Shown here piece by piece: positions 3,123-54,647 of a stretch of 64,000 nucleotides of DNA (its first letter is position 1; each line of letters starts with the position of its first letter). The notes below the pieces were generated by a model. The model saw only the letters and a program-made list of their open reading frames with translations, was not told the DNA's origin and made no database searches. The translations under genes and the position numbers were made by a program. Source of the DNA: Halovibrio variabilis (GTDB lineage Bacteria > Pseudomonadota > Gammaproteobacteria > Pseudomonadales > Halomonadaceae); assembly GCF_007991175.1 (NCBI RefSeq), contig NZ_BJXV01000010.1, positions 124,001 to 188,000 of the forward strand, given 5' to 3'.

Positions 3123-3194
3123 GGGACTCTCCAGCCAAGGCCTACTTGGCGCGATGGGATGCATAAAGTCAGGTAAAAAGCGCGGGTAAGTGTG

Positions 3195-3815
3195 CTAGCG
3201 CCAGCGCTGGTCTGGCGATAAACAGCAACTTTTCACTAACTGCGCGTTGAGCATGTCTTTGCGATGGGTGCGCGCTAGCGCCCCAGCGCGATCCTGGCCC
3301 ATCTCAAGCCAGCGATTGACCAGCCGCTCAATCAGCACGACGTCGTCGACGTCTATAAACAGCGTCCAATCAAACAGCGGGCGCAATTCGCGCCAGGGGG
3401 AGCGGTCAAGCAGCAGGTAGTTGCCCTCAACAATGACGATGCGCTGCTCAAGGGTAATCAGTCGCCCACCGGCACGGGCGAGATCCAGCGGGCGATCAAA
3501 CACTGGCACTGCGACTGGGTGAATTCCTTGGCGGATACGCTCAAGGTCACAGCGCAGTCCCTCCACATCGAAGGTATGAGGTGCGCCTTTTACCGGCACC
3601 TGCTGCTCGCCTAGCACGGCGTTATCGAAGTGGTAGCCGTCCATAGGCACCAACCCAGCTTGGCCTGGCAGGTATTGATTAATGGCATCGCAGAGCTGAT
3701 CGCTGCGATAAGATTTCCCCGCCCCCGGCGGCCCTGCCAGCGCTACCAGATAGCGTGATGCGCCTTCGGCAGCGCCAATAATCTGACGGGCTAACGTATC
3801 AAAATCAGGTGTCAT
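3195..3815 (-). CDS. P-loop sugar/nucleoside kinase, FrcK/YggC-like
   Basis: A 206-residue kinase of the uridine kinase/phosphoribulokinase superfamily. It has a Walker A loop GPPGAGKS near residue 27, PMDGYHFDN near 60 in the place of the substrate loop, and VIVEGNYLLLD near 130. Proteins of this type (YggC, FrcK) occur in sugar ABC-transporter operons, and FrcK lies in a rhizobial fructose uptake operon. Here it sits between sorbitol and mannitol dehydrogenases, both of which can give fructose, and no conventional PfkB fructokinase is visible. I infer a ketose kinase, possibly for fructose. The start at 3815 follows GAGG; a GTG two codons upstream is also possible. Confidence 0.75.
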   Translation of the reverse strand: MTPDFDTLARQIIGAAEGASRYLVALAGPPGAGKSYRSDQLCDAINQYLPGQAGLVPMDGYHFDNAVLGEQQVPVKGAPHTFDVEGLRCDLERIRQGIHPVAVPVFDRPLDLARAGGRLITLEQRIVIVEGNYLLLDRSPWRELRPLFDWTLFIDVDDVVLIERLVNRWLEMGQDRAGALARTHRKDMLNAQLVKSCCLSPDQRWR

Positions 3816-3822
3816 GACCACC

Positions 3823-40237: not shown

Positions 40238-41856
40238 GGTGCCATCCTTGTTGTCGTTCCTGGGGGCGGGAAAGTGTCAGCGTCAGGTGCCGCAAAATCG
40301 GCCTGCAACCAGTGGCGCAGTTGGCTCATTCTGGGTGCGTTAGCGGCCTGCTCAAGCGCTGGCAGCGTGCCGGGTATAAATCCACGCGCCAAAAAGGGTG
40401 CCAACAGCGCTGGGTCGCCGCTGATAATATGCACGGGCACCGCCTTGCTGGCATCGTCACCGGTAATCAGCGGTGCTGCCTGATGGTCGCCGAGGACGAT
40501 CAGCAGAGTGTCGTTATCCACCACCCGCTCGGCCCAGCGCCCGGTAACTTTGACAGCATAGTCGACCGACCAGGCATAGTGATCACGAATACGCTCGATG
40601 TCCTGCCATAACACCTCGGGCGGGTCGCCGGCCTCCTCCCAGGGGGTAAAAATCTGGCCGTCTGCGATTAACGACCAGTCTTCAATCACTGGCAAAATCG
40701 GTGTCCAGGGCGCGTGGCTGGAAATCAGTGCCAGCTGCGCGAATACCGGCGTGTCGCCCAGCAAGTGGCGCTGGGTGTAATCGAGGGTGAACTGGTCGGG
40801 CATGGTCACCCAGTTGAGCGCGGGGCCGGCGTAGTCGATATCGTTGGCGGCGGCAATCTGATCAAAACCGTAGGCCTGCCCTTCCGGCCACGCCATGGTG
40901 ATGGCGGGCATTACGCTGAGGGTGCGTTGACCGGTGGCGCTAAAATCATCGATCAACGTCGAGTGATCGCTATTTAGCATCAACCGATACCATAGCTGAT
41001 TATCGATCCACCGGCCGCTAAGGACGGTTGCATGAGCAAGCCACGACTGCCCCCCTTGAATGGGCGCCTCTAACATACCTGACACGACATGCAGATGGCG
41101 ATTCTCCAGGCGCTGCTGCATCTCGCTAAGCGTGGGTAGCAACACGTCAGCATAGCGCGGGTCATTCAGCGCCGAAATGCCGTAGGACTCAATAAACGTC
41201 AGCAACACGTTACGCCCCTCAAGCCCGGGCATCGGCTGCGTAGCAATGGGTGATGTCTCCAACTGCTCGGCAAAGGCAAGGCGCGCGGCGTGGGTATCGG
41301 CTATTTGCTGCCACTGAAACCGCGTGGTGTTGAGCATGGGCAAACGGGCACTGTCCACCAGCCGTACCCCGGCCAACTCAAGTGCGGCGCCGCTGGTAGC
41401 CACCACCAGCACCGCTAACGCGGCGGCCCCAGGGAGTTGCTTCACACAATAGTGAAAGGGCGGTAGCAGTAAGCGTAATAAGCCCAAAACAATACCCAGC
41501 AGCACAGCGGCCCCGACGAACATCGCGCAAACCGCCACAGTTTGGCCTACATTACCTACTAGCAGATGATAAATAGAGCGCAGCAAAGGAATATCAAGGT
41601 AAAGGTTCAATGGCCGGGCAAAGGCCATATTAATGGCCGCATCGCCTAAATTAGCGGCAGTGGCCACCAAAATCCAACTGACGAACGCAACGACCAGCCA
41701 ACGACGCAGTTGGCGGGGAGGAAGCAGTAGCATAAGCGGCGCGATAATCAGCGCCTCCCAAGCAATAAGATGGGAACTGACATCACCAAAACGCCACCAC
41801 AGCGGCGCGATGAGTAATACATTCAGTGTTAGTAGCGTTAATAATAATCGACTCAT
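40234..41856 (-). CDS. Sulfatase-like membrane hydrolase/transferase (LtaS/PetA superfamily)
   Basis: A 540-residue protein. The first 170 residues hold about five membrane helices. A periplasmic alkaline-phosphatase-superfamily domain follows, with the metal-site run LLTFIESYG near residue 215, a nucleophile candidate in GGQSWLAHATVLSG near 270, and LIVLGDHQAA near 465. Relatives transfer phosphoethanolamine or phosphoglycerol to lipids or glycans, or hydrolyse esters. Coupling by ATGA to manC suggests that it modifies a mannose-containing surface polymer; this is inferred. Confidence 0.82.
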   Translation of the reverse strand: MSRLLLTLLTLNVLLIAPLWWRFGDVSSHLIAWEALIIAPLMLLLPPRQLRRWLVVAFVSWILVATAANLGDAAINMAFARPLNLYLDIPLLRSIYHLLVGNVGQTVAVCAMFVGAAVLLGIVLGLLRLLLPPFHYCVKQLPGAAALAVLVVATSGAALELAGVRLVDSARLPMLNTTRFQWQQIADTHAARLAFAEQLETSPIATQPMPGLEGRNVLLTFIESYGISALNDPRYADVLLPTLSEMQQRLENRHLHVVSGMLEAPIQGGQSWLAHATVLSGRWIDNQLWYRLMLNSDHSTLIDDFSATGQRTLSVMPAITMAWPEGQAYGFDQIAAANDIDYAGPALNWVTMPDQFTLDYTQRHLLGDTPVFAQLALISSHAPWTPILPVIEDWSLIADGQIFTPWEEAGDPPEVLWQDIERIRDHYAWSVDYAVKVTGRWAERVVDNDTLLIVLGDHQAAPLITGDDASKAVPVHIISGDPALLAPFLARGFIPGTLPALEQAANAPRMSQLRHWLQADFAAPDADTFPPPGTTTRMAP

Positions 41857-42004: not shown

Positions 42005-42080
42005 TATTGTGTAAAAAATTCACGCTTTGCGTCGCTGATGGCGAAGCGTGTGCAGACCTTCTACCGAAAGGACTTCGCCC

Positions 42081-43622
42081 ATGTGTTGTAACACTATTGG
42101 TAGGTGGTGGGCAGGTAAGTGGATGGTTCTCCTCAGTAGTGCCGTCATCTCTTCCGCGTTTGCCCAAGACGATCAACAGTTCAGCGACGTCATAGAACGT
42201 GCTCAACAGCTTGCCGAGCACGCGTATCAAGCCCCCGAAGAGACGCTGCCGAAGGCACTGCGTGAGCTTGACTACGATGCCTACCGACAAATTCGTTTTG
42301 ATCCCGAGCATGCCTATTGGCAAGACGAAAGCCCCTTCAGCTTACAGCTGTTTCACAGCGGCTTTCTGTTCCAAACCCCGATAGCCCTTAATGTCATTGA
42401 TCAAGATGGCGTTACCCCGCTGCCCTTTTCAGCAGGCGATTACCGCTACGATGGCGCCGCTGAAACGTTGCAAGAGCATGACCTAAGCGGCAGCGGTCAC
42501 GCGGGCTTTCGCCTGCATTATCCCCTCAACAGCGACGACTACGCCGATGAGTTTGCCGTTTTTCTCGGCGCGAGCTATTTCCGCCTGGTAGGGCGCGGCC
42601 AAGCTTACGGGCTCTCGTCACGGGGGCTGGCGATTGATACGGCGTCTGCCGAGGGCGAAGAGTTTCCCGCGTTTCGCGAATTCTGGTTGTACAAACCCGC
42701 CGCTGACGCCAGGCAAATTGAGCTGTTAGCGTTAATGGATAGCCCATCAATTAGCGCTGCCTACCGTTTTATCATCCAGCCTGGCGACAGTACTCAGGTT
42801 GAAGTAGAGGCCGAATTGTTTGCCCGGCACGATATTGCCAAGCTAGGCGTGGCGCCGTTAACCAGCATGTTTACGTTTGGTGAAGCAAGCCGCGAGCGCC
42901 CGGACGATTTTCGCCCTCAGGTACACGACTCTGACGGCCTGCTGATGCATACCGGCAGCGGCGAGTGGATCTGGCGCCCCCTGAGCAACCCCAAGCATCT
43001 TCGCACCTCGGCATTTAGCGATAGTCAGCCTCAAGGGTTTGGCTTGATGCAGCGGGAACGTGACTTTAGCCGCTACCTGGACACCGAGGCCCAGTATCAC
43101 CGCCGCCCCAGCCAATGGGTCGAGCCCTTAGCGCAATGGGGGCCAGGCCACGTCGAACTGGTTGAAATTCCCACCCCCGATGAAACCCACGACAACATCG
43201 TTGCCTACTGGGTGGCGGACGACACGCTTGACGCGGGCGAATCCCGCCGCCTGCACTACCGCACTTACACGCTTAACGCTCAGCCAGAAGCGCATACGCT
43301 AGGTCGGGTCATTCGCACCCGCCACGGGAACGCAAAGGTACCGGGAACAGATTCACCCGCTGACGCTCAGCGTCAGTTTATCGTCGATTTCCAAGGCGGG
43401 GCGTTAGATGCTATTAGCGCCGACCAAGCCGTCGAGTTAGCTATTAGCAGCCAACAAGGTGAGGTATTGCTGCCCCAAGTTACCGCACTGCCTCATCAAG
43501 GCTTTCGGGCGAGTTTTCGGCTACCCGAAAGCGATCAACCCAGCGATGTTCGCCTCAGGCTGACCCTAAACGGCGAACCGGTTAGCGAAACCTGGAACTA
43601 CGTGTGGTATCCCGATGCCTAG
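42081..43622 (+). CDS. mdoG: Glucan biosynthesis protein G
   Basis: A 513-residue periplasmic protein needed for osmoregulated periplasmic glucan backbone synthesis or branching. A signal peptide spans the first 30 residues and ends near SAFAQDD. MdoG runs include DYDAYRQIRFDPEHAYW near 60, LFHSGFLF near 85 and SRGLAIDTA near 180. The start at 42081 has AAAGGA upstream; the frame is open 33 bp earlier without need. The stop overlaps the mdoH start by eight bases, the standard mdoGH arrangement. Confidence 0.93.
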   Translation: MCCNTIGRWWAGKWMVLLSSAVISSAFAQDDQQFSDVIERAQQLAEHAYQAPEETLPKALRELDYDAYRQIRFDPEHAYWQDESPFSLQLFHSGFLFQTPIALNVIDQDGVTPLPFSAGDYRYDGAAETLQEHDLSGSGHAGFRLHYPLNSDDYADEFAVFLGASYFRLVGRGQAYGLSSRGLAIDTASAEGEEFPAFREFWLYKPAADARQIELLALMDSPSISAAYRFIIQPGDSTQVEVEAELFARHDIAKLGVAPLTSMFTFGEASRERPDDFRPQVHDSDGLLMHTGSGEWIWRPLSNPKHLRTSAFSDSQPQGFGLMQRERDFSRYLDTEAQYHRRPSQWVEPLAQWGPGHVELVEIPTPDETHDNIVAYWVADDTLDAGESRRLHYRTYTLNAQPEAHTLGRVIRTRHGNAKVPGTDSPADAQRQFIVDFQGGALDAISADQAVELAISSQQGEVLLPQVTALPHQGFRASFRLPESDQPSDVRLRLTLNGEPVSETWNYVWYPDA

Positions 43623-45627
43623 CACAACCGATATCCAACCATCGATTCCCTGGCTGACCACACGCCGGGGCGGTCTGGCCATTGTGGTGCTGCTTTCCAG
43701 CGCGGCGGGCTGTATCGCCATGAACCACGTCGTCGCCAGCCTCGCTATCGGCTGGCAGGTTTCCATGCTGGTGCTGTTTGCGTTGACCTTTACCTGGATC
43801 GCGCTGGCATTTTGGGGCGCCGTTTGCGGCTTTGTGGTCTGCGCGCTGCGCCGCGACCCGCTTAGCCTACGCAAGCTCGACCAGCAAGCGCCCAGCGCAC
43901 GCCTGCTCGTGAGCCGCACCGCGATCGTGATGCCGATTTATGCCGAGCCACCGATCCCCACCTTTGCCGGGCTTGAAGCCACCTGCCGTTCGCTGTTGAG
44001 CTACGCCATTCATAGCGATGGAAACGACGCGGTACGGCCCATGAGCGAGCATTTTGAGGTGTTTATTCTTAGCGATACGCAAGACGCCGCCCAAGCTCAG
44101 GTAGAAGAGGCTCACGTGGCGGCCTTGCAGCGTCGTTTTAGCGAGCAGTTGGCCATCCATTACCGCCGGCGGGCTAACAATAACGGCCGCAAAGCGGGTA
44201 ACATCGCCGAGTTTTGCCGCCGCTGGGGGCGCTACTATGATTATATGATCGTACTCGATGCCGACAGTTTAATGAGCGGCGCCACGCTGCTGCGCATGGT
44301 CCAGCGCATGCAGCGCCAGCCCTCACTGGGTTTGATCCAAACGGTACCCATCCCGGTCGGCCAAAAAACCCTGTTTGGGCGCTTCACGCAGTTTGCTTCA
44401 GCGCTCTACAGCCCCATGCTGGCCGCTGGCCAGAGCTTCTGGCAAGGGGATGCCGCGAACTATTGGGGACACAATGCGATTATCCGCACGCGTGCCTTTA
44501 TGGATTACGCCGGCCTCCCCACGCTCTCCGGCAGGCCACCGCTGGGCGGTGAAATACTCAGCCACGACTTCGTGGAGGCCGCCTTGCTCAAACGCGGCGG
44601 CTGGCAGGTCATACTGGACACCACTATCACCACGGCGGTATCGCGCCATGACCCCTACGCCAGCGCCTCCCACAATAGTTTTGAAGCCATGCCGAGTAAT
44701 CTGCTCGACTTTGCGAAGCGTGACCGCCGCTGGCTCCAGGGCAACCTTCAGCATTTACGTTTGCTAAGCGGCGCAGGGTTGCACCCCCTCAGCCGCCTGC
44801 ATTTCTTCTACGGCGCGTTTGCTTATTTATCCTCATTAGTGTGGCTAGGGCTTTTGCTATGCACCAGCGCATTGGTAACGGTTCACTCGCTGAGTAATGA
44901 GTCAGGTGAGCTGCTGTCAGGTAACGTTACCTTTAACCCGCTTTCGCTGGGGTTACTGTCCATTACCTTAGTGATGCTATTGGCGCCTAAACTACTCGGC
45001 TGGCTACTGGCCTGCTGGCAAACGCCCCACGCCTTCGGTGGTCGGCTGCGCCTGACCGTCAGTACCTTTCTGGAAATGCTGTTTGCCGCCTTGTTAGCGC
45101 CGTTGATGATGGCGTGGCACAGTCTCTTTATTATCAACGTGCTGCTAGGGCGCTCCATTGAATGGCAAACGCAAGAGCGGGGTGAGCGGTCACTGACTTG
45201 GCGTGAAACCTGGCAACACACGTGCTGGATGACGCTCACCGGCGTGGCATGGGCGGGCATAATGGCCGCCTTTTCGGCGACGGCCTTTGGTTGGTTAACC
45301 CCGGCCTGGCTAGGCCTAGTGGCGGCGGCACCGCTGGTTAAATACTCCAGCAGCAGTACCTGGGGCGGCGTGGTGAGCTATCGGCTCGGGCTTCTTAAAA
45401 CGCCCAGCGAATGCTTAATGCCGTCGGTACTAGCGGATTTTGCAGCACTCATGAGCAGTAGCCACCCGCATCCTCTCGACCCATCGACCCAAGCGGCTTA
45501 CCCACTTCAGCTACCGCCGCCGGAGCGCCTGGGAGCGATGCTCTGCCAATCCTTTCAGCAGTTTGATCGTCAGGCATTGGCAGCCTCATCACAAACGCCG
45601 CCGACAACGACCAAGGAGCCGTATTAA
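43615..45627 (+). CDS. mdoH: Glucans biosynthesis glucosyltransferase H
   Basis: A 670-residue inner-membrane family 2 glucosyltransferase that extends the beta-1,2 glucan from UDP-glucose. Two N-terminal helices precede the catalytic domain. That domain holds AIVMPIYAEPP near 103, LDADSLMSG (Asp215, Asp217), HDFVEAALLKRGGW near 322 and the QxxRW-equivalent RDRRWLQGN near 375. Several helices follow. E. coli MdoH is 847 residues; this one lacks much of the N-terminal cytoplasmic region and some C-terminal part. It overlaps mdoG by eight bases, and its stop shares TAATG with the next gene. Confidence 0.93.
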   Translation: MPSTTDIQPSIPWLTTRRGGLAIVVLLSSAAGCIAMNHVVASLAIGWQVSMLVLFALTFTWIALAFWGAVCGFVVCALRRDPLSLRKLDQQAPSARLLVSRTAIVMPIYAEPPIPTFAGLEATCRSLLSYAIHSDGNDAVRPMSEHFEVFILSDTQDAAQAQVEEAHVAALQRRFSEQLAIHYRRRANNNGRKAGNIAEFCRRWGRYYDYMIVLDADSLMSGATLLRMVQRMQRQPSLGLIQTVPIPVGQKTLFGRFTQFASALYSPMLAAGQSFWQGDAANYWGHNAIIRTRAFMDYAGLPTLSGRPPLGGEILSHDFVEAALLKRGGWQVILDTTITTAVSRHDPYASASHNSFEAMPSNLLDFAKRDRRWLQGNLQHLRLLSGAGLHPLSRLHFFYGAFAYLSSLVWLGLLLCTSALVTVHSLSNESGELLSGNVTFNPLSLGLLSITLVMLLAPKLLGWLLACWQTPHAFGGRLRLTVSTFLEMLFAALLAPLMMAWHSLFIINVLLGRSIEWQTQERGERSLTWRETWQHTCWMTLTGVAWAGIMAAFSATAFGWLTPAWLGLVAAAPLVKYSSSSTWGGVVSYRLGLLKTPSECLMPSVLADFAALMSSSHPHPLDPSTQAAYPLQLPPPERLGAMLCQSFQQFDRQALAASSQTPPTTTKEPY

Positions 45628-46412
45628 TGCCTAGCCTGTATTTCCAACGGCTGCGCAGTGCGAGTGGGCTCGCCCGCTCGCTATTTATTTATTGGCGGCC
45701 GGGTCGACAACGCGGGCTACAACGCCTTTACCGCCCTTTCATTCAGCCCGGCGCCATCGCCTTTGATATTGGCGCCCACTTAGGCGACCGCAGTGCCGCC
45801 TTTCAAAGGCTGGGGGCCACCGTGGTAGCCCTTGAGCCACAGCCGAATCTCGCCAAGTGGTTCAGGCGTATGGTCAACAAACCCAACGTAACGCTGCTGC
45901 CGCTGGCCGCCGGGCCAAGCCCAGGCTTTGCCGAGATTGCCATTAGCTCCGGCAACCCCACGCTTTCGACCCTGGCCACCGACTGGCGCGAACAAATCGG
46001 CGAACGCAACGCAGGCTTTAGCCACGTTCGCTGGGAACAGCGGCTGCGCGTCCCGGTCATCACCCTGGATAGGTTGATTGATGAATATGGCGAACCCAGT
46101 TTTATCAAAGTCGATGTCGAAGGTTTTGAGGCTGACGTATTGGCAGGGCTTAGCTGCCCGGTGGCCGCCCTGTCGGTGGAGTTCGTCGCCGGCGCGCTGG
46201 ACGTCGGTCGCGCCTGCGTTGAACACCTGAGCGCCCTCGGTGATTATCGTTATAACGTCGTGGTCGGTGAGCAACGCCACTTTCAGTGGAGCGAGTGGCA
46301 ACCCCCACAAGCGACTATCCAGTGGCTTGCCGATGGCGCCAACGACGTCCCTTCCGGCGATCTTTACGCCTGCCGCGCCGATCATCCCTTGGTGCTGAAT
46401 GATGTTAAATAA
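45627..46412 (+). CDS. FkbM family methyltransferase
   Basis: A 261-residue SAM-dependent methyltransferase. FDIGAHLGDRSAAF near residue 48 is the SAM site, ALEPQPNLAKWF follows, and FIKVDVEGFEADVLAGL near 152 is the FkbM hallmark. The TAATG junction with mdoH makes it co-translated with the glucan genes. FkbM proteins O-methylate sugars or polyketides. I infer that it may methylate the periplasmic glucan or a related glycan, a modification not standard for mdoGH operons. Confidence 0.85.
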   Translation: MPSLYFQRLRSASGLARSLFIYWRPGRQRGLQRLYRPFIQPGAIAFDIGAHLGDRSAAFQRLGATVVALEPQPNLAKWFRRMVNKPNVTLLPLAAGPSPGFAEIAISSGNPTLSTLATDWREQIGERNAGFSHVRWEQRLRVPVITLDRLIDEYGEPSFIKVDVEGFEADVLAGLSCPVAALSVEFVAGALDVGRACVEHLSALGDYRYNVVVGEQRHFQWSEWQPPQATIQWLADGANDVPSGDLYACRADHPLVLNDVK

Positions 46413-46430: not shown

Positions 46431-47210
46431 ATGATTCACCACTGGCAAACGCTGACCGCGCCACAGCTCGCGGATTTCGCCCAACGCGACCCGGTGGCCG
46501 TGCTAGTACTCGGCGCCATTGAGCAGCACGGCACGCACCTTCCCCTCGCTACTGACCTCATGATTGGCGAAGGGCTGCAGGCCGCCATGCTAGAGGTGCT
46601 TGACCCCGATCTTAACGTGATCTGCCTGCCGCCTATCGCCGTGGGCGCCAGCGACGAGCACGTCAGCTTCCCCGGTACGCTAAGCCTGCCTGCGCCGCTG
46701 GCGATTGCCACCCTGGAAGCCTACGGCGACAGCTTGGCCCGCGCGGGCATCCGCCGTTTGGTGCTGCTTAACAGCCACGGGGGGAACAAAGCAGTCATGG
46801 ACTTGGCGGGGCTAACGCTACGGCGGCGGCATGGCATGCGCGTCGTCAAAGCGACCTACACGCGTCTGCCCGCGCTGGAAGGTGCAATAGATGCCGACGA
46901 ACTGCGCTACGGGTTGCACGGAGGATTGCTTGAAACCGCCATGATGCGCTACCTGGCGCCTTCGTTAGTGCAACTCGACGATTACACAGCAGCGCCGACC
47001 GCCGCACCGCAAGACGCTGCTTTGGTCAGTGCCGAAGGCGCTGCAGCGTTTGCGTGGTTGGCTGAAGACTTGAGCCCGCATGGCGTGGCAGGCGACGCGA
47101 CCCACGCCAGCGCTGAACTAGGCGAGCAGCTGGTTCAACACTATGCCCGCCAACTAGCGGCCGTAGTGGCGGAAACCGCCCACCTACCACCGCTAACCAG
47201 CCACCGCTAA
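46431..47210 (+). CDS. Creatininase-family amidohydrolase (MftE/ArfB-like)
   Basis: A 259-residue metal-dependent amidohydrolase. The metal-binding runs are LGAIEQHGTHLPLATD near 30-45, with Glu, His and Asp, and LNSHGGNKA near 118. HGGLLETAMM near 165 gives the third site. The superfamily includes creatininase, MftE of mycofactocin synthesis and ArfB, which deformylates a GTP-derived pyrimidine in archaeal riboflavin/F420 synthesis. The next gene is a GTP cyclohydrolase II, whose products are of just this kind, so an ArfB-like role is attractive but unproven. It is 18 bp after the FkbM gene. Confidence 0.85.
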   Translation: MIHHWQTLTAPQLADFAQRDPVAVLVLGAIEQHGTHLPLATDLMIGEGLQAAMLEVLDPDLNVICLPPIAVGASDEHVSFPGTLSLPAPLAIATLEAYGDSLARAGIRRLVLLNSHGGNKAVMDLAGLTLRRRHGMRVVKATYTRLPALEGAIDADELRYGLHGGLLETAMMRYLAPSLVQLDDYTAAPTAAPQDAALVSAEGAAAFAWLAEDLSPHGVAGDATHASAELGEQLVQHYARQLAAVVAETAHLPPLTSHR

Positions 47211-47266
47211 CCAACCAAACTTGCTGCACAAGTGGGAACCAGCTTTAGCTCGCGGCCGTGTTGCGT

Positions 47267-48370
47267 TTAACGCTGGTCACTGAGCACATCTTCCAACAGA
47301 TGCCCACCGCGGGTGGCCTTGGCATTTAAGTAGCGGTGATTTTGGTCGGTAACGCTACCGTAAAGCGCCTGGCGCGATACCACCTCGATACCGCCTTGGC
47401 GCAGCGCCTCCATTTTCAACGGATTATTGGTCAGCAGCTGCACCTGGGTGATCTCAAGCGCGTTTAACATATCCACCGCCACCGCATACTGGCGCTCGTC
47501 GTCGCCAAAGCCAAGCACCTGATCCGCATCCACGGTGTCCAAACCACCGTCCTGCAAGGTATAGGCGCGCAGCTTATTGGCCAGGCCGATACCCCGGCCC
47601 TCCTGGGCTAAATAAAGCAGCACGCCGCCGCCCATGGCTTGAATATCCGCCACGGCATTGCGCAGCTGCTCGCCACAGTCACAGCGCAAGCTACCAAACA
47701 AATCGCCCGTCAAACACGCCGAGTGCATACGTAACGGCACCGCACCTTGCCATTGCGCCTGCTCACCGATGACCACGGCCACGTGCTCACGCAAGCCGTC
47801 CGGCTCCCGGAACAGCACAAAGCGGCTATGAGCGGCCTCTTCGAGGGGAATGTGCGCTTCGCTGACACGTTTAAGCATGCCCGGCGCACCGGCCAGGCAC
47901 TGCTGCGCCTCTTCGGCGTCCACTTCCAGCAGCCGCCCTTGGGCCAGCTGTTGATCAATAGTGGCCGCGGCGGCTTCACTGACAAACGCGCATAGCGCCG
48001 CGGGGATTAGCAACGCCCGGCGCATAAGCGCAACCGCGCCACGCTCGGCCAGTCCCGCGGGTTTTAAACCGCTCGTTAAGCCACTGGGAGCCTGCGGCCA
48101 GTTTTCCGCAGTAGCTAAGCCGTGCAGCTCGCTAACACTTATATCGGCGGCTAACGGCAAACTGGCCGCCTCTGCCGTCAGCGAGATCCCCATCGCTGCC
48201 AAACGGTGACGAGTGAGGACCAACGCTGGCCGCGACCCCGCCGTTTGAGCCAGGGTTTCCACCGACTCACTGCCCTCCAGCGCCTGCACTAACAAGCGCT
48301 GCCCATCGGCATTGACCACCACTGGCAATCCCCGACGTATATCGAAAATAGCTCGTTCAATCTGATACAT
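47267..48370 (-). CDS. ribA: GTP cyclohydrolase II with degenerate RibB-like N-terminal domain
   Basis: A 367-residue protein. The C-terminal 200 residues are a full GTP cyclohydrolase II: the zinc cysteines lie in HSACLTGDLFGSLRCDCG, then LYLAQEGRGIGL and LLTNNPLKMEAL. This enzyme opens GTP to a 2,5-diamino-6-ribosylamino-pyrimidinone. The N-terminal 160 residues align in style with 3,4-dihydroxy-2-butanone-4-phosphate synthase (IERAIFDIRRGLPVVV) but lack its acidic metal/substrate motif (DDEDRENEGD), so that activity is probably lost. AGGAGG lies five bases before the ATG. It is divergent from the ribD-like gene. It is best seen as a paralogue serving the local cluster. Confidence 0.88.
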   Translation of the reverse strand: MYQIERAIFDIRRGLPVVVNADGQRLLVQALEGSESVETLAQTAGSRPALVLTRHRLAAMGISLTAEAASLPLAADISVSELHGLATAENWPQAPSGLTSGLKPAGLAERGAVALMRRALLIPAALCAFVSEAAAATIDQQLAQGRLLEVDAEEAQQCLAGAPGMLKRVSEAHIPLEEAAHSRFVLFREPDGLREHVAVVIGEQAQWQGAVPLRMHSACLTGDLFGSLRCDCGEQLRNAVADIQAMGGGVLLYLAQEGRGIGLANKLRAYTLQDGGLDTVDADQVLGFGDDERQYAVAVDMLNALEITQVQLLTNNPLKMEALRQGGIEVVSRQALYGSVTDQNHRYLNAKATRGGHLLEDVLSDQR

Positions 48371-50267
48371 GTAGGCCTCCTGGCTTCCTGGCGTGAGGGA
48401 CGTTCCGCGCTTGCGCTAAACCGACAGGCGCCGCATGATAAAGCGGATTTTCTAGCGCGGAGGCGTCATGCCCGACTCCCCTATCGACACGGGTTTTATC
48501 TATCAAGAAAGCGATATTGCGCTGGCAGATGCCTGGCAGTGGCTGCTGGCACGGCGCCACCAGCGCCCCTGCTCGGTCGCCGTTACCCTGGCGCCCGACG
48601 GTGAATGGCAATCGCCGCAAACGGTGACGCCTGAAGCGCGCCAGCTGCTGGATTGTTTGACCCCGCTGGCTAGCCGCCCCGCGTGGGTCATCGCACAGCT
48701 GGGACAAAGCATGGATGGCCGGATCGCCACCGAAAGTGGCCACTCGCATTACATTAACGGCCATCAAAGTTTGGTCCACCTGCACCGGCTGCGGGCCTTG
48801 GTAGACGCTGTGGTGATCGGCGCCGGCACCGCCAGCGCTGACAACCCGCAGCTGACGGTGCGCCATGTCAGCGGCGTTAGCCCGACCCGGGTGGTGCTGG
48901 ACCCGCGTGGGCGCCTGCCGGATGACTTGACGCTGCTGACGACGCCGTCCGCCGCGACGCTGCATATCGTTGGGCCCAGCGTAGCAACGGCGTCCGCCAA
49001 CGCTCACGTAGAGCGCTGCGTACTGCCATTGAACAGCAGCGGCCAGTTCAGCCCCAATGACGTGATTGCGCTGTTGGCTGAGCACGGCTTGCACCGCGTA
49101 CTGATCGAAGGCGGCGGCATTACGGTGTCCCAATTTATCGAAGCGGGGGCCGTTGACCGGCTGCACCTGCTGGTCGCTCCGCTGCTGATTGGTTCCGGCC
49201 GACCGGGGCTTAAAATGACCCCCATCGACACCCTTGAAAGTGCGCTGCGCCCGCCCACCCGAACGTTCCGCTGCGGGGACGACACGCTGTTTGACATGCA
49301 ACTGAGCGCCGCCGCCACCTGACGGCTGTGCCGTGCGGCGACGGCTTAACGCTACCCAAATACCCGGCAGGCTGGCCAGTAACACGATGACGCCATAGGC
49401 CAGCGACACTGCCACGCCCTGGGCAGCGGGCAAGCCCACCAGCGCCCATACGCCCGCAGCAGTGCCTTCGCGCAGCCCCCACCCCGCCACCGACAAGGGA
49501 ATCAGCATCGCGAGCAGCAGCACCGGCGTTAGCGCCAGCAGCTGCAGGGCAGGCAGTTCGACGCCAATCGCCCGCGCAGCGCACACCATCACTAAACCGT
49601 AGCTCACCACAATCGCCAGCGACGAGAGCAACTGCTGGGGCCAAACCCCACGCTGATATAAGCCGCGTTTTAGGTCTCTGGCCAAGGCGCGACACCATTG
49701 GGGTGCACGGGCTAAGCCCACGCCAACGCGCTGACGGAGCAGCAGCCCGGTGACCACGACGCCCCCCACCGCCGCTGCCAGCGTAGTCAGCACTGGCCAG
49801 CCTAATGCGCCATGCCAAAGCGGTGAGAGCAGCAGCGCCGTGAGCGTTAGCAACGCCACCGCGACCTGCCCGGAGGCGCGCTCAATAATCACCGCGCGCC
49901 ACGCACTGCCTCGAAACGCGGCCTGGCTGGCATGGCGGTGCGCGCGCCCTGCGTCTCCTAACACACCACCCGGCAAAAGCTGGTTCACTAACAGCGCCAG
50001 ATAGTATTCGCGCAGGGCATAGGTAAACCGTAACGGCACATCGATAAGGCCCGCGGTGAGCTGCCAGCGCCAGGCGCATAGCATTACTTGCAGGGTACTG
50101 ATCGCTAGCGCCAGCACCACCCATCCGGCTGAAAAGCGCTGCACCTCGGCAAGTATCGCCTGAGGCTCCACCCACAGCGCAACGGCGCCCAGCAGCGCGG
50201 CGCTGATTAACCCACGACGTAGCCATGGGCGGTCCATCCAGACAAGTAACCGGCGTGCAAGGCGCAT
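48357..50267 (-). CDS. Flippase-like membrane protein (LPG synthase TM/UPF0104), open frame extended antisense through ribD
   Basis: The first 310 residues (50267 down to about 49340) form an integral membrane protein with 7-8 helices. Its UPF0104/AglD-type runs are ALREYYLALLVNQLLPGGVLGD (read near residue 82-103) and LIPLSVAGWGLREG near 245. The usual family length is 310-330. Here no stop follows: the frame stays open for about 325 more codons, antisense to the whole RibD-like gene, and ends 14 bp inside ribA on the same strand. That tail is low in hydrophobic pattern and looks non-biological. The start at 50267 lies four bases after the glycosyltransferase stop. Either the stop was lost, a sequence error is present, or the tail is translated. 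Confidence 0.7.
   Translation of the reverse strand: MRLARRLLVWMDRPWLRRGLISAALLGAVALWVEPQAILAEVQRFSAGWVVLALAISTLQVMLCAWRWQLTAGLIDVPLRFTYALREYYLALLVNQLLPGGVLGDAGRAHRHASQAAFRGSAWRAVIIERASGQVAVALLTLTALLLSPLWHGALGWPVLTTLAAAVGGVVVTGLLLRQRVGVGLARAPQWCRALARDLKRGLYQRGVWPQQLLSSLAIVVSYGLVMVCAARAIGVELPALQLLALTPVLLLAMLIPLSVAGWGLREGTAAGVWALVGLPAAQGVAVSLAYGVIVLLASLPGIWVALSRRRTAQPSGGGGAQLHVKQRVVPAAERSGGRAQRTFKGVDGGHFKPRSAGTNQQRSDQQVQPVNGPRFDKLGHRNAAAFDQYAVQAVLSQQRNHVIGAELAAAVQWQYAALYVSVGGRRCYAGPNDMQRRGGRRRQQRQVIRQAPTRVQHHPGRANAADMAHRQLRVVSAGGAGADHHSVYQGPQPVQVDQTLMAVNVMRVATFGGDPAIHALSQLCDDPRGAASQRGQTIQQLARFRRHRLRRLPFTVGRQGNGDRAGALVAPCQQPLPGICQRNIAFLIDKTRVDRGVGHDASALENPLYHAAPVGLAQARNVPHARKPGGLHVSD
48468..49322 (+). 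CDS. RibD-type reductase domain protein, no deaminase
   Basis: A 284-residue NADPH-dependent reductase of the RibD C-terminal/dihydrofolate-reductase-like family. From residue 75 it follows the family: VIAQLGQSMDGRIAT, HYINGHQS, HLHRLRALVDAVVIG, GTASADNPQLTVR and LIEGGG near 208. The zinc deaminase domain of full RibD is absent, replaced by about 70 unrelated residues. GGAGG lies four bases before the ATG. The whole gene lies antisense to the open frame continuing from the flippase-like gene. It probably reduces the ribosylamino side chain of the RibA product or a related pyrimidine. Confidence 0.88.
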   Translation: MPDSPIDTGFIYQESDIALADAWQWLLARRHQRPCSVAVTLAPDGEWQSPQTVTPEARQLLDCLTPLASRPAWVIAQLGQSMDGRIATESGHSHYINGHQSLVHLHRLRALVDAVVIGAGTASADNPQLTVRHVSGVSPTRVVLDPRGRLPDDLTLLTTPSAATLHIVGPSVATASANAHVERCVLPLNSSGQFSPNDVIALLAEHGLHRVLIEGGGITVSQFIEAGAVDRLHLLVAPLLIGSGRPGLKMTPIDTLESALRPPTRTFRCGDDTLFDMQLSAAAT

Positions 50268-50271
50268 ACGA

Positions 50272-52197
50272 TTAGCCCTCTTCCCGGGGCGTCGCGAGTA
50301 AATCGCAGTGCCCAACCCAAACCCCAAGGGCACCGTCTGCCACTGCTTGCTGACGCTGCTGCAACCAGTGGGTAATCCGTTGCGCCGCCTGCGGGGCTTG
50401 TGTCATTGCCGCTTCCGCCCAACCTTCGAGTAGGGCTTTGATCAACGGCTGCTGGGCACTGTTGCCAGCGGCTAACCGCCAAGGTGTTTCGGCCTGCTCA
50501 ACGCGGTAATTGGCCTGTTCTAAAGCGCTGACCAGAGCGCTATGCGCCTGCCCGCCCAGGGCGGCTCCCAAGCCTTTATCACGCCGCTGGTGGGCAGTAA
50601 ACATTGCCAACACCCAATGATCTTCGTCGTCCAGCACCGGCTCGCCCTGGGAATCCATAAAGTGCCACTTACCGGTAACGCTCAAGGCGATGAATAGCGC
50701 TTGGCGCTGCGCGGCGCAACGGGCCACCAATGCCTCAATCCACGCTTGTGAAACGAGATCCAGCAAGGCCGACGCGGTTACCAAATGGGCCCCATGCAGC
50801 GGGACGCTATCCACCGGCGCCAGGGAGACGCAGTGGGTTTCGACGGCAATGGGCCGCCCCTCGGCATCGCTAACATCGGCGGCGCGTTGGCGCGCTTGCG
50901 CTAACAAGGCAGCGTCGTGGTCGATTAGATTCCAACGCTGAGGGCCATGCAAGCGCGGGGCGAGAAAGCGCATATTGCTGCCTCGGCCACAGCCCAGGTC
51001 GGCTATCAACGGGGTCGATGTCCGCGCACGCAACCATTCATCGGCGAGCGCCGCAAGCGGCTGACTGCGTGAATCAACATCGGCCTCTTCGCGCAGGGTT
51101 AACCAATCTGCCGCAAACTGACTCCCAGCGTGCAAGCTCGTGACGTTTAAAGCCGCAGCAAATGCTGCCCCCGCCGCTTGCCAGTCGCTTAACTGTTCGC
51201 GCGACTTTATAGCGCCCTGACGCAGCCGGTGGCGTAACTCGGCGTCGTGACAAAAGCGGTTCAAGGCGTCTTGCAGGGCATCGCTGTCGCCCGGTATAAC
51301 GCTCAACCCGGCGCCTTCCGGCAAGGTATCGCGAAGCGCGCCGCCGGTGGTGGTGATTACCGGTAAGCCGTGAGCCAAGGCTTCGGTGACGACCATGCCG
51401 TAGCCTTCGTACCAGGATGGCAGTAACAGCGCATGCGCGTGTCGATAGGCAGTTTCCAGCGTTTCGCCATCACACTCGCCGTGCAGGTGCACGCGGGCTT
51501 GCAAGCCATGTTGCTCGATCAACTGCTCTACGCGCTGGGTGAACGCTGGGTCGCGTGCGTCGCCATAGCAGTCGCATTGCCAATGCTCACCCGCAACGCC
51601 CGCCAGTGCTTGAACCAGAATGTCCTGCCCCTTGCGCGGCGTTAGCGTCGCCACGCACAGCAGCCGTAGCGGTTCGCCGGGCTCAGCGGCGGGGCTAATG
51701 GGCGCCTGAGCGACGCCCGGTTCCACCACGCTGACACCCGCGTTCAGCGGTACGTCGTAATGAGCCGCCAGTTCCGGCAGGCGTCGGGCGGTAAAACGGC
51801 TGGTCACAATAATCCGCGCCACAGCGGCTAACGCGGCTAGTTCACTGCGATGAAAACGCTGCTGGTCGGCGGCATTAAGCCCCAACTCATCGCCTAAGGG
51901 GTGGTGCAGTAACGCCGTGATATCCAGCCGCTGAGCATGCGGCGCCACTACCTCAGGCAAAGCGCCCATGGCGAGCCCATCAATCACCACAGCGGCGCTA
52001 TCGGGCAGCCTTTCCAGCGTCAGGCCAAGCTGGGCTGCCGCCGTGGCATCGGCGTCGGGAAATTCACCGTCCAGGCCAACCACATCGATATCAAAGCCCT
52101 GTTCACGCAGGGCCGAGACGATATGGGCATCATAGAGGTAACCCCCGGTACGTTGCCCTGGGTCACCCGCCACGATTAAGCTAAACCGCTGGCTCAT
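50272..52197 (-). CDS. Glycosyltransferase family 4 - methyltransferase fusion
   Basis: A 641-residue two-domain protein. Residues 1-355 are a GT-B glycosyltransferase, with LCVATLTPRKGQDILV near 180 and LLLPSWYEGYGMVVTEALAHG near 258-278, which holds the EX7E region. Residues 375-600 are a class I methyltransferase with IADLGCGRGSNMRFLAP near 397. The start overlaps the stop of the pterin-synthase-like gene's reading as ATGA, so the genes are coupled. The acceptor is unknown. In this cluster it would add a sugar and a methyl group to the pyrimidine/pterin product; this is inference. Confidence 0.87.
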   Translation of the reverse strand: MSQRFSLIVAGDPGQRTGGYLYDAHIVSALREQGFDIDVVGLDGEFPDADATAAAQLGLTLERLPDSAAVVIDGLAMGALPEVVAPHAQRLDITALLHHPLGDELGLNAADQQRFHRSELAALAAVARIIVTSRFTARRLPELAAHYDVPLNAGVSVVEPGVAQAPISPAAEPGEPLRLLCVATLTPRKGQDILVQALAGVAGEHWQCDCYGDARDPAFTQRVEQLIEQHGLQARVHLHGECDGETLETAYRHAHALLLPSWYEGYGMVVTEALAHGLPVITTTGGALRDTLPEGAGLSVIPGDSDALQDALNRFCHDAELRHRLRQGAIKSREQLSDWQAAGAAFAAALNVTSLHAGSQFAADWLTLREEADVDSRSQPLAALADEWLRARTSTPLIADLGCGRGSNMRFLAPRLHGPQRWNLIDHDAALLAQARQRAADVSDAEGRPIAVETHCVSLAPVDSVPLHGAHLVTASALLDLVSQAWIEALVARCAAQRQALFIALSVTGKWHFMDSQGEPVLDDEDHWVLAMFTAHQRRDKGLGAALGGQAHSALVSALEQANYRVEQAETPWRLAAGNSAQQPLIKALLEGWAEAAMTQAPQAAQRITHWLQQRQQAVADGALGVWVGHCDLLATPREEG

Positions 52198-52592
52198 AGC
52201 GGGCCTTCGAAGCTTGCCCAGGCCACATGGGATTCGTGCAGTTTGACCTCTAGATGGGTCAACCCACGCGCGGTCGTGCCCATTTCACCGGCGTTAATCG
52301 CCGCCGCCAACTGGTCAAAAATCACTTTGGCCATAAACTCGGTGGTAGTGTTCTTGCCTTGCAGTTCACTTACCTCATCCAGATTTTGATAGTTGTAGCC
52401 TGCCAGCACGGCTTTGAGGGTCTCACTGGCCAGACCAATATCGATAACGAGACCATCGTCATCCAATTCGGGGCGCTGAAAAACCACATCCACCACATAG
52501 GTAGCACCGTGGGTGCGCTGCGCCGGTCCAAACACCTCTCCCTTAAAGCTGTGGGCAATCATAAAGTGGTCACGAACACATAAACGGAACAT
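52194..52592 (-). CDS. 6-pyruvoyl-tetrahydropterin synthase/QueD homologue with altered active site
   Basis: A 132-residue member of the PTPS/6-carboxytetrahydropterin synthase fold. In QueD the site is AH...C-x-R-L-HGH. Here the first His is kept (IAHSF, His14). The catalytic Cys position is Ala (GPAQRTHG, Ala24), and the second His of HGH is Ala (THGATY, His28, Ala30). The C-terminal catalytic Glu is kept (VKLHESHVAW). Zinc binding and chemistry are therefore unlikely to be those of QueD. The ATG at 52592 has GAGG seven bases upstream. It is coupled to the downstream glycosyltransferase gene. Confidence 0.85.
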   Translation of the reverse strand: MFRLCVRDHFMIAHSFKGEVFGPAQRTHGATYVVDVVFQRPELDDDGLVIDIGLASETLKAVLAGYNYQNLDEVSELQGKNTTTEFMAKVIFDQLAAAINAGEMGTTARGLTHLEVKLHESHVAWASFEGPL

Positions 52593-52629
52593 ACACACGC
52601 CTCATAGTTAACTTTTTAAAAATATACAC

Positions 52630-53613
52630 TTACAAGGGATATCGTAGCCGGTGGCAGAGTTCAGCGCTGCCGCGACCAAACAACCAAGGGGCCAGCGTAG
52701 GCAGCTGGGCAAAGTCGCTTTCACCGCTGATAAGTGCCTCCAGCCGATCATCTACCAGCAGGCTCAAGGCTAAACGAAGGCGTCGCGTGTAATCCCAGCG
52801 AGGGCTCAATTTAGCCGGCAACTGGCCTACCTGGCTGGCCTTAAGCGTCAGCCGCTGGGAGTGAAAAGCGCCACCCAATGGCAAGGCCACCTCACCTTCG
52901 CCAAACCAGCTCATTTCGATAATGCGCCCTTCATTGCCAACGACTGCCAGCGCCTGGCGTAAGCCAGCCGCGTGCCCGCTGGCGTGGATCACACAGTCCT
53001 GATCGTGAGTCACCTCCTCAGGGGCACAGAAAGCCACGCCCAGTTGCTCGGCAAGCTGGCGACGCTCGGGATTAATATCGACCAATCGCACATTGACGCC
53101 GGGGATTTGAGCGCAAAGGTACGCCACCAGCGTACCCACCACGCCAGCCCCGATCACACATATCCGCTCGCCCAGCATGGGCTCGGCGTCCCACACCCCG
53201 TTAATAGCGGTTTCCATATTCGCGGCCAGCACCGCTCGCTCGGCGGGTACATGGGTAGGCACTTCAAGCACCGCCGAGGCAGGCACGACGTAATGATCTT
53301 GATGGGGAAACAAGCAGAAGACGGTTTTATCCAATAAAGCGCTTGGGCCTTGTTCAACGCGGCCAACACTGCAGTAACCGTACTTAACCGGGGCAGGAAA
53401 CTCCCCGGCTTGAAAGGGAGCCTGCATGCGGAAGTATTCGCTTTCGGGCACATGGCCATTGAACACCAGCGATTCGGTGCCACGGCTGATGCCGCTGTAC
53501 AAGGTGCGTACACGCACCTCATCCGCTGCCACGGCGGGCAAGGGTTCAGGACGCAGTTCACCCTGTGCTGGGCGTGTCACCCAAAAGGCATTCGCGTATT
53601 CAGGCGTCGACAT
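52630..53613 (-). CDS. Zinc-type alcohol dehydrogenase-like protein (MDR)
   Basis: A 327-residue medium-chain dehydrogenase/reductase. The GroES-like N-domain has LYSGISRGTESLVFNG near residue 38. The Rossmann part has ICVIGAGVVGTLVAYL near 150 and LVDINPERR. It resembles the BchC-type dehydrogenases. The usual Cys of the catalytic zinc site (GxCGTD) is replaced by SRGTE, so it may be zinc-free. The start at 53613 has AAGGAAGG upstream. It is the first gene of the minus-strand unit running to ribA, and shares a 314-bp divergent region with the CDP-alcohol transferase gene. Confidence 0.85.
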   Translation of the reverse strand: MSTPEYANAFWVTRPAQGELRPEPLPAVAADEVRVRTLYSGISRGTESLVFNGHVPESEYFRMQAPFQAGEFPAPVKYGYCSVGRVEQGPSALLDKTVFCLFPHQDHYVVPASAVLEVPTHVPAERAVLAANMETAINGVWDAEPMLGERICVIGAGVVGTLVAYLCAQIPGVNVRLVDINPERRQLAEQLGVAFCAPEEVTHDQDCVIHASGHAAGLRQALAVVGNEGRIIEMSWFGEGEVALPLGGAFHSQRLTLKASQVGQLPAKLSPRWDYTRRLRLALSLLVDDRLEALISGESDFAQLPTLAPWLFGRGSAELCHRLRYPL

Positions 53614-53927
53614 AACCCTTCCTTCTGGTTGCGAACTCCAACGCCGCGAGCTCTTTTTCACTCCATTGAACACGGTGTCGCGCTATTGAATTGCACGTTA
53701 AGTAGCGTGGCGTTGTCATATACAAAACGTTTATCAATGGCTCACCTTTTTTAAGCTTAGCGTTTGAAAATGAAATATTCGATTAACAATTTTGGTCAGT
53801 GGATACTAACGTGTGTATTGTCTTGAGCGTATGGACAACCCTACCTTCTTCTACAAGAATGGTACATATAAAAATTTTTGCATCATTTTTTCAGTCGTAT
53901 GCCGCGCTATTGCGGTGAGGGGCTTGC
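53614..53927. promoter_or_regulatory. Divergent promoter region with two inverted repeats
   Basis: This 314-bp gap lies between the dehydrogenase-like gene (minus) and the CDP-alcohol transferase gene (plus). It contains TTGT-5 bases-ACAA at 53713-53725 and TTGTC-11 bases-GACAA at 53818-53838. The two share the TTGT/ACAA half-site. The region is AT-rich compared with its surroundings and holds no gene. Joint control of both arms of the cluster by one regulator is possible; no regulator gene is adjacent. Confidence 0.4.
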
Positions 53928-54647
53928 ATGTTTCGCTTTTTGAATACCTCAGGGTGTTATTCGTTATCCAAGCGCCTTCAAACCGCTATAGAGCTGGTGC
54001 TGGGCGGTTTGCTGCTGCTGGTAGCTGGCCAACTCTTGCCCACTCTAATGGCCGGCCCGATTAATTGGGCCGTCGCTTTTGGTCTGTACATGATGATTGC
54101 TGGCCTAGTGGTCATTTACTGGCCACAAGGCGCACTCGGCTGGGCAAACCGCGTTACGTTAGTGCGGGCCGTGCTGGTCGCCTTGGTAGCAGGCGGCTTA
54201 GCCGCGGGCACATTTACGCAGGTGATTTGGCAGTGGCTGCTGATCGCCGTGTTAGCACTACTGCTGGATGGAGTGGACGGCTGGGTCGCCAGACGCACCC
54301 AAAGCCACTCTGTCTTTGGGGCACGTTTTGACATGGAGCTTGATGCCCTGTTGATTATGCTGCTGTGCATCGGCCTGCTGCTTGAATCGATGGCCCCTTG
54401 GGTGCTGTTGATTGGCGGTATGCGCTATCTATTTGTGATCGCGGGCTACCGGCTTAGCTGGCTACTGGCGCCGTTGCTGCCTAGTTTACGCCGCAAAATA
54501 GTCTGTGTTTGGCAAGTCTCCGCCTTGCTGCTAGCGCTGACACCGCTGACCTCACCGTTGCTAACCGGGCTGCTTGCCATCAGTGCGCTGCTATCGCTCA
54601 TAATGTCATTTGGTGCCGATGTAAAATGGCTCTACCAGCAAACATGA
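53928..54647 (+). CDS. CDP-alcohol phosphatidyltransferase family protein
   Basis: A 239-residue membrane protein with about six helices. The family signature DG(x)2AR(x)8G(x)3D(x)3D is seen as DGVDGWVARRT...GARFDMELDA around residues 108-135, with all aspartates kept. Such enzymes move a phosphoalcohol between CDP and an alcohol acceptor, usually making a phospholipid head group. GAGGGG lies just before the ATG. It is divergent from the pterin-like cluster and most similar in layout to archetypal PgsA/Pcs proteins, but the substrates cannot be told. With the flippase-like protein it hints at a lipid-linked product. Confidence 0.85.
   Translation: MFRFLNTSGCYSLSKRLQTAIELVLGGLLLLVAGQLLPTLMAGPINWAVAFGLYMMIAGLVVIYWPQGALGWANRVTLVRAVLVALVAGGLAAGTFTQVIWQWLLIAVLALLLDGVDGWVARRTQSHSVFGARFDMELDALLIMLLCIGLLLESMAPWVLLIGGMRYLFVIAGYRLSWLLAPLLPSLRRKIVCVWQVSALLLALTPLTSPLLTGLLAISALLSLIMSFGADVKWLYQQT

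Follow-up and report, generated by a model that had tools for sequence, protein, structure and literature searches.

What does a bacterium make with extra copies of riboflavin- and pterin-type enzymes that sit among glycosyl-, methyl- and CDP-alcohol transferases? The question is raised by a stretch of the Halovibrio variabilis genome (GCF_007991175.1, contig NZ_BJXV01000010.1, positions 124,001 to 188,000 of the forward strand; 64,000 nucleotides), hereafter the window, to whose positions all coordinates below refer. The original prediction, made from the sequence alone, described eight genes there as a new pathway to a glycosylated, methylated pyrimidine or pterin that is not riboflavin and is possibly lipid-linked and flipped across the membrane. 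We find that the neighbourhood is a real, widespread pathway, one very probably dedicated to a GTP-derived product other than riboflavin. Our preferred reading, to which we give a probability of about 0.4, is that the cell attaches a conjugate derived from GTP, a pyrimidine or a pterin, to a phospholipid, which is flipped across the membrane before the conjugate passes to a glycan in the periplasm.

Gene content and the case against riboflavin

Open reading frame (ORF) listing, translation and Pfam searches recovered all eight predicted genes, at or near where they had been placed and with the families claimed for them. Their outer boundary did not hold, since the set continues leftward into genes for an FkbM methyltransferase, OpgH, OpgG and a protein of EptA/LtaS fold, which recur as neighbours in other genomes. 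The features are as follows.

40234..41856, minus strand: EptA/LtaS-fold protein, resembling membrane-anchored periplasmic phospho-headgroup transferases (Pfam Sulfatase 1.5e-4, under the curated cut-off; AlphaFold predicted local distance difference test score, pLDDT, 93.1)
42048..43622, plus strand: OpgG/MdoG, periplasmic glucan biosynthesis (Pfam MdoG 2.8e-187; the genome's sole MdoG match)
43615..45627, plus strand: OpgH/MdoH, glucan glucosyltransferase (NCBIfam NF003958, 690.6 bits, passing the cut-off of 419)
45627..46412, plus strand: FkbM-family methyltransferase (TIGR01444, 87.4 bits, cut-off passed)
46431..47210, plus strand: creatininase-family amidohydrolase (Pfam Creatininase 6.6e-64)
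47267..48370, minus strand: GTP cyclohydrolase II (RibA) with a degenerate RibB-like N-terminus (Pfam GTP_cyclohydro2 1.5e-54)
48468..49322, plus strand: RibD reductase domain without a deaminase domain (Pfam RibD_C 1.8e-37)
49365..50268, minus strand: LPG_synthase_TM (LPG_TM) flippase-like membrane protein (PF03706 9.2e-35; the open frame extends to 48357, antisense to ribD)
50272..52197, minus strand: GT4 glycosyltransferase fused to a class I S-adenosylmethionine-dependent methyltransferase (Glycos_transf_1 5.6e-30, Methyltransf_25 2.7e-6)
52194..52598, minus strand: PTPS-like T-fold protein with an FGPAQ signature (Pfam PTPS 4.5e-25; translation probably starts at codon three, 52592)
52630..53673, minus strand: medium-chain dehydrogenase (MDR), NAD-binding, with the catalytic-zinc Cys replaced by Ser (ADH_zinc_N 6.5e-8)
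53928..54647, plus strand: CDP-alcohol phosphotransferase, divergent from the MDR gene (Pfam CDP-OH_P_transf 1e-11)

Most curated NCBIfam cut-offs are missed by the eight proteins, though the families agree in kind; the cluster enzymes are diverged paralogues.

A complete riboflavin gene set lies elsewhere in the same genome, with bifunctional RibD, RibBA and lumazine synthase (RibH) on contig C22, riboflavin synthase on contig C19 and a further RibA on contig C1. The cluster is therefore not for riboflavin, as had been predicted. Pfam found no RibB, RibH or RibE among the ten cluster proteins scanned, and the cluster RibD carries RibD_C alone, in agreement with its description as a reductase that lacks the deaminase domain. 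The RibB-like part of the RibA protein had been called non-working, and PF00926 indeed gives no match to its N-terminal 165 residues at an E value of 1e-3; the same profile matches the genome's housekeeping RibBA at 2.1e-86. On these grounds we rejected assignment to a riboflavin operon. An alternative route to riboflavin, a flavin-secretion route or a riboflavin backup could call on the RibA and RibD homologues, and it has a parallel in Sinorhizobium, where RibBA serves secreted flavins and the creatininase-family protein BrbF internal riboflavin (PMC9478397). We nevertheless consider such a route very improbable, given the genes and domain missing here and complete elsewhere; it would also leave the glycosyltransferase, methyltransferase, CDP-alcohol and flippase genes unexplained.

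Conservation and co-occurrence

We searched genome contigs with a profile built from a 15-row PTPS-like alignment. Of at least 586 relatives, the best 80 were kept as loci, and the sample therefore leans towards close relatives; 27 of the 80 are assigned to Halomonadaceae by their titles. Family hidden Markov models (HMMs) built from the cluster's own families were used for the counts at an E value of 1e-6, and absence means absence from the fetched stretch (at most 10 kb on each side, less on short contigs). Nine loci without a BLAST-labelled PTPS were recovered by HMM. For the residue counts given below, ORFs were picked by BLAST label, which leaves out very divergent copies.

The neighbourhood is conserved well beyond this strain, in Pseudomonadota, Actinomycetota, Acidobacteriota and Gemmatimonadota. 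Across the 80 loci, MDR and PTPS were each found in 80, GT4 and methyltransferase each in 79, RibD in 70, the CDP-alcohol transferase in 67 and LPG_TM in 53; RibA was found in 42, creatininase in 39, FkbM in 26, the EptA/LtaS-like protein in 21, OpgG in 16 and OpgH in 14. The 53 loci from outside Halomonadaceae show the same core (MDR 53, PTPS 53, GT4 52, methyltransferase 52, RibD 46, CDP-alcohol 40, LPG_TM 28), together with RibA in 21, creatininase in 18, the EptA/LtaS-like protein in 17 and FkbM in 13. With parts missing in places, the order CDP-alcohol< MDR> PTPS> GT4> MT> LPG> RibD< RibA> creatininase< FkbM< recurs (MT, methyltransferase). The GT4-methyltransferase fusion is present in the window as predicted but is not the rule, the best GT4 and methyltransferase matches sharing a frame in 16 of 78 other loci and lying in different frames in the remaining 62. 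All or part of the set is carried on plasmids in Thiodictyon, Methylosinus, Rhizobium, Microbacterium and a Rhodobacteraceae strain.

Four Actinomadura/Amycolatopsis loci (L077, L092, L100 and L119) have RibA and creatininase and give no RibD match in the fetched stretch. A tree of the 80 MDR proteins places Actinomycetota in one group and does not prove transfer between phyla. In the same tree, a locus counted above with Halomonadaceae, L049, groups inside Vreelandella despite its title as a metagenome-assembled genome (MAG) of Rhodovulum sp. SAT37; it is probably a misplaced contig. Cytochrome b561 was considered as a member of the set and set aside, being found in 3 of 88 loci (adjoining RibD on two plasmids, several kilobases off in L084).

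Co-occurrence was examined in 61 genomes of the window's family and in a phylum sample of 398 genomes; each sample was taken as the same genomes from search to search since the handles agree. The PTPS-like gene is present in 36 of the 61 family genomes. RibD accompanies it in 35 of these (G020 is the exception), the CDP-alcohol transferase in 35 (all but G009) and the EptA/LtaS-like gene in 34 (all but G009 and G043), against none of the 25 genomes without the PTPS-like gene in each case; MdoG occurs in 36/36 and 9/25, respectively. Fisher values for these comparisons run from 3e-16 to 1e-8. The sole PTPS-positive genome without a CDP-alcohol match, G009, is also without the EptA/LtaS-like gene. 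Distance between the EptA/LtaS-like and PTPS-like genes is within 20 kb in 17 of 34 genomes, the other 17 having them farther apart or on different contigs.

A PTPS match was found at an E value of 1e-3 in 110 of the 398 phylum genomes. We counted only the 27 at or below 3.8e-53 and dropped the other 83, whose best match was 2.8e-15 or weaker and which we read as QueD or other PTPS proteins. The EptA/LtaS-like gene is present in 19 genomes, 15 of which also have the PTPS-like gene, leaving 4 among the 371 PTPS-negative genomes. Outside the window's family, six genomes have both genes, 12 the PTPS-like gene only and four the EptA/LtaS-like gene only (p 7.5e-7; collapsing one genus gives 1.3e-4). 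The EptA/LtaS-like partner is thus linked to the cluster, neither universally nor exclusively. Four genomes of family f55 (G240, G265, G295 and G334) carry the EptA/LtaS-like gene and are absent from the 110 with any PTPS-like match; their neighbourhoods might reveal another donor lipid.

Active sites and a proposed route

Gene content, conservation, active-site residues, co-occurrence and folds are established directly; every substrate, the order of steps and the final acceptor are what we infer from them. In GTP cyclohydrolase II, three cysteines bind zinc and a tyrosine and an arginine are catalytic; the tyrosine and zinc cysteines are also thought to complete deformylation. The cluster RibA keeps these residues (C219, C230, C232, Y253 and R259 in 44/44) and matches the GTP cyclohydrolase II structure 2bz0 at an E value of 2.7e-47. 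It misses PRK08815 (333.4 bits, cut-off 464) and passes the subfamily model PRK00393 (232 against 148). By its residues it appears to be a GTP cyclohydrolase II, which would open GTP to 2,5-diamino-6-ribosylaminopyrimidinone phosphate; where the cluster is without RibA, the housekeeping enzyme would supply this diaminopyrimidine.

The RibD protein falls short of ribD_Cterm (120.6 bits, cut-off 150). Its best solved chain, 6p8c (E 8.1e-21), is named 2,5-diamino-6-ribosylamino-4(3H)-pyrimidinone 5'-phosphate reductase, a name that refers to the 2,5-diamino compound before deamination, and the second match, 2azn, is named as a putative uracil-type reductase. The cluster enzyme would convert the sugar to a ribityl chain and, because it reduces without a deaminase, the 2-amino group would be kept. 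Riboflavin-type RibA and RibD are reportedly reused for another pyrimidine product in the toxoflavin cluster and in vicine biosynthesis; unlike the present cluster, these systems are not known to have PTPS-like, CDP-alcohol, flippase or EptA/LtaS-like parts.

The creatininase-family protein retains E31, H33, D42, H116 and E168 in 39/39 copies, and its best NCBIfam match is MftE (109.9 bits, below the cut-off of 172). Although the cluster RibA keeps the residues thought to complete deformylation, a deformylase or related amidase role is plausible by analogy, since the family includes BrbF, a proven AFRPP deformylase (PMC9478397). The cluster resembles the BrbF/ArfB formamidase systems in placing a creatininase-family enzyme beside GTP ring opening (PMC9478397), and differs in that its RibA retains both the tyrosine and the zinc cysteines.

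Members of the PTPS/QueD group use a catalytic cysteine and three zinc-binding histidines (the CxxxHGH motif and an upstream histidine), an Asp-His pair and a glutamate that anchors the pterin. When the cluster's PTPS-like protein was aligned with a QueD-like protein (L148), the catalytic Cys was replaced by Ala26, the last His of HGH by Ala32 and Asp-His by Asn-Tyr, while Glu122 aligned with the substrate Glu. Ala26, Ala32, His16, His30 and Glu122 are each present in 79/79 copies, and HGH reads HGA in all of them; within the FGPAQ signature, F23, G24, A26 and Q27 are likewise 79/79 and P25 is 77/79. The score against QueD is 45.5 bits, missing the cut-off of 89. With the catalytic Cys, third zinc His and Asp-His pair all replaced, we rejected a working PTPS/QueD synthase. 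Because Glu122 is nevertheless kept, the protein should, judging from its sequence, hold a 2-amino-4-oxo-pyrimidine ring without performing PTPS chemistry.

The family profile matches the Protein Data Bank (PDB) entry 3d7j, SCO6650 of Streptomyces coelicolor, at an E value of 9.5e-64 and other PTPS/QueD chains weakly (best 7.8e-7). SCO6650 belongs to the same family and was deposited as uncharacterised; the paper on its structure reportedly describes no zinc, no catalytic triad and no PTPS activity, with pterin-binding residues kept, which agrees with our reading of the cluster protein.

The MDR enzyme is NAD-type by its GxGxxG...D pattern, scores 55.8 bits against NCBIfam bchC (under the cut-off) and has Ser at position 63, aligned with the zinc Cys of RspB, in 85/85 copies. 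As a zinc-less NAD-dependent enzyme, it would oxidise the polyol chain. The PTPS-like T-fold would then bind the 2-amino-4-oxo-pyrimidine end through its Glu and assist rearrangement, perhaps pterin ring closure. On paper, a 2'-ketone formed by the MDR enzyme would allow the 5-amino group to close a dihydropterin ring, giving neopterin without GTP cyclohydrolase I. GT4 and the methyltransferase, whose model has a pLDDT of 95.2, would decorate the conjugate, and the product would be a glycosylated, methylated pyrimidine or pterin.

The signature of CDP-alcohol phosphotransferases, DxxDGxxAR...GxxxDxxxD, is intact in the cluster enzyme (D114, D117, G118, A121, R122, G131, D135 and D139 in 62/62, also invariant in alignment A7), and among PDB entries the enzyme's profile extends to synthases of choline and serine phospholipids. 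The best NCBIfam match is archaetidylinositol phosphate synthase, a polyol-phosphate user, at 28.9 bits against a cut-off of 180. The gene is often divergent and adjoining MDR, and in other genomes, at 23 of 88 loci, a YceI gene comes after it on the strand they share. The enzyme would join the resulting alcohol to a lipid phosphate, and the LPG_TM protein would flip the lipid.

For the EptA/LtaS-like model, structural matches include LtaP, LtaS, GacH, EptC, EptA, MCR and BcsG, and also sulfatases. The best Foldseek rows include LtaP, an unnamed Vibrio protein of the alkaline phosphatase superfamily, LtaS, EptC and GacH; sulfatases appear from rank 20 on. VIA-align gave LtaS a Z score of 21.3 (278 residues, root-mean-square deviation 4.1) and full-length EptA 18.2 (433 residues, 6.9). 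NCBIfam returned no match at an E value of 0.01. E223, S271, H381, D457, H458 and H476 are invariant in 35 rows. The nucleophile is Thr in LtaS and EptA and Ser in BcsG; Ser271, found in 35/35 rows, would be its counterpart, as read from sequence only. The predicted transmembrane anchor, alkaline-phosphatase-fold periplasmic domain and putative metal/nucleophile residues fit an EptA/LtaS/OpgB-type enzyme. Where present, this transferase would pass the phospho-headgroup on to a glycan in the periplasm; for Halomonadaceae the probable acceptor would be the OpgGH glucan.

The EptA/LtaS-like gene adjoins MdoG in 20 of 34 genomes (adjacency read by eye from coordinates), and in two genomes (G038 and G051) the pair lies on a contig of more than 500 kb, with the PTPS-like gene on a different contig. 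Escherichia coli OpgB and OpgE, as described in part of PMC3818809, combine a membrane part with a sulfatase-type periplasmic domain and transfer phospholipid headgroups to periplasmic glucans. The cluster protein would resemble them in architecture and in serving OpgGH; the headgroup here would differ in being a GTP-derived conjugate from a dedicated pathway. In a Gemmatimonadales MAG (L082, positions 3-4205), opgG, opgH and the MDR gene are strung together with their ends overlapping, which joins the glucan genes directly to the cluster.

Weighing the readings

Part of this neighbourhood is already in print. A section of the 2017 AGeNNT paper, which also gives the CxxxHGH motif of PTPS, assigns FGPAQ to the PTPS-IV subfamily of COG0720 (561 sequences) and includes PF00925 and PF01872 (RibD) in its neighbourhood, with no function given there (PMC5445326). 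The cluster family has both the signature and that neighbourhood. The same main-text section takes the PF00925 partner to be GTP cyclohydrolase I/FolE2 and lists no CDP-alcohol, GT4-methyltransferase, flippase, YceI or EptA/LtaS-like partners. The PTPS-IV label is also ambiguous, because a passage in Zallot 2016 uses it for an unpublished archaeal F420 role (PMC5041015). The flippase-like, YceI, OpgGH and EptA/LtaS-fold partners at the membrane and periplasm are new here. Our literature search of openly licensed papers (CC0, CC BY and CC BY-SA) found no description of the whole cluster, its product or its lipid and periplasmic partners.

The flippase, YceI and EptA/LtaS-fold partners, with the conserved CDP-alcohol motif, lend support to two parts of the original prediction, its exclusion of riboflavin and its lipid-linked and flipped product; its interpretation as a whole is partly supported. 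Two checks suggested along with it, for riboflavin genes elsewhere in the genome and for the neighbourhood in other genomes, both left it unrefuted. Several observations weigh against our preferred reading. RibA is local in only 42 of the 80 loci, and 13 loci gave no CDP-alcohol gene and 10 no RibD, some of these being short contigs. The Rhodobacteraceae plasmid retains MDR, PTPS, methyltransferase and RibD only, and two Streptomyces plasmid stretches (L035 and L041) have the PTPS-like gene alone, near cupin, metallo-beta-lactamase-fold and regulator genes. Outside Halomonadaceae, OpgH is found in 5 of 53 loci and OpgG in 4 (one match weak and partial), and YceI does not adjoin the CDP-alcohol gene in the window. 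The EptA/LtaS-like gene is missing from G043, which has the cluster, and from 12 of the 27 PTPS-positive phylum genomes, while four genomes carry the gene but no cluster. Because genomes of one family share history, the Fisher values make the evidence look stronger than it is. The methyltransferase fold matches generic class I enzymes only and gives no substrate hint. VIA-align also placed sulfatases at up to Z 17.7 against the EptA/LtaS-like model; because sulfatases match the fold, the protein may hydrolyse rather than transfer a headgroup.

Some of these points would suit a soluble product, a glycosylated and methylated pterin or pyrimidine acting as pigment, cofactor or signal, with the lipid and envelope genes as neighbours of other function. 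The genes that hold together most tightly are MDR, PTPS, GT4, methyltransferase and RibD, some loci are without lipid genes, and pterin glycosides occur in cyanobacteria and green sulfur bacteria. We think this doubtful, however, given that the CDP-alcohol gene, often divergent beside MDR, co-occurs with the PTPS-like gene (35/36 against 0/25 genomes) and that the EptA/LtaS-like gene co-occurs even when unlinked. GTP might instead supply a ribityl or aminopolyol phosphate headgroup: once the pyrimidine is removed, the polyol phosphate alone would pass to lipid and glycan. RibD yields a polyol phosphate, the amidohydrolase and the unusual T-fold protein could perform the cut, and the archaetidylinositol phosphate synthase match, though far below its cut-off, would fit. 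Such a use of GTP is costly, and Glu122, the presumed pyrimidine holder, is present in 79/79 PTPS-like copies, although a cutting enzyme would fit that too; we regard the idea as distinctly unlikely. An exopolysaccharide or glycolipid locus that captured pterin and riboflavin paralogues by chance or by hitch-hiking is disfavoured and hardly credible: glycosyltransferase, FkbM, OpgH and flippase genes are usual members of polysaccharide loci, but the same set and order recur in four phyla, the family co-occurrence is all-or-nothing and RibA catalytic residues are kept in 44/44.

Transfer of a lipid-borne, GTP-derived conjugate to a periplasmic glycan stays our preferred reading. Carried further, it would mean that at least four phyla make a new class of phospholipid, with a glycosylated, methylated pterin or diaminopyrimidine headgroup built from GTP via riboflavin-type intermediates and moved by an EptA/LtaS-fold enzyme to periplasmic glucans or other envelope glycans. 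We hold this extension to be unlikely, if worth stating. Its headgroup would possibly arise by a pterin route independent of GTP cyclohydrolase I, in which RibA acts first, RibD reduces, the MDR enzyme oxidises C2' and the ring closes on the PTPS-like protein. If right, the preferred reading would join the reuse of GTP ring-opening chemistry with bacterial envelope decoration, provide a pathway for the uncharacterised FGPAQ PTPS family with its solved structure 3d7j, account for additional copies of RibA and RibD that annotation easily assigns to riboflavin, and equip membrane lipids and periplasmic glucans with a possibly redox- or light-active headgroup. A lipid-linked product is open to test because the cluster is tied to a phospholipid headgroup and to a transferase of the periplasm.

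A few other features of the locus deserve mention. We rejected a role in anti-phage defence: PADLOC, run on seven cluster proteins (the flippase and the left-hand genes excluded), gave no match for six and, for the seventh, a weak partial match to mad2 (17.8 bits) in its methyltransferase part. Two recurrent ORF clusters, c13 and c28, were discarded as conserved genes because they are antisense to CDP-alcohol, EptA/LtaS-like or YceI genes where coordinates were compared. In the window, the CDP-alcohol gene is followed by a GFA-family gene in convergent orientation. The flippase gene had been drawn from 48357 to 50333; its family stands, but the extent does not, since the domain ends near 49365 and the rest is antisense to ribD. 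The frame has no stop at the domain end and stays open through the whole of ribD. Among 41 convergent flippase/ribD pairs, a frame overlapping more than 80% of ribD was seen in 16, all with Halomonadaceae titles (Halomonas, Vreelandella and Modicisalibacter).

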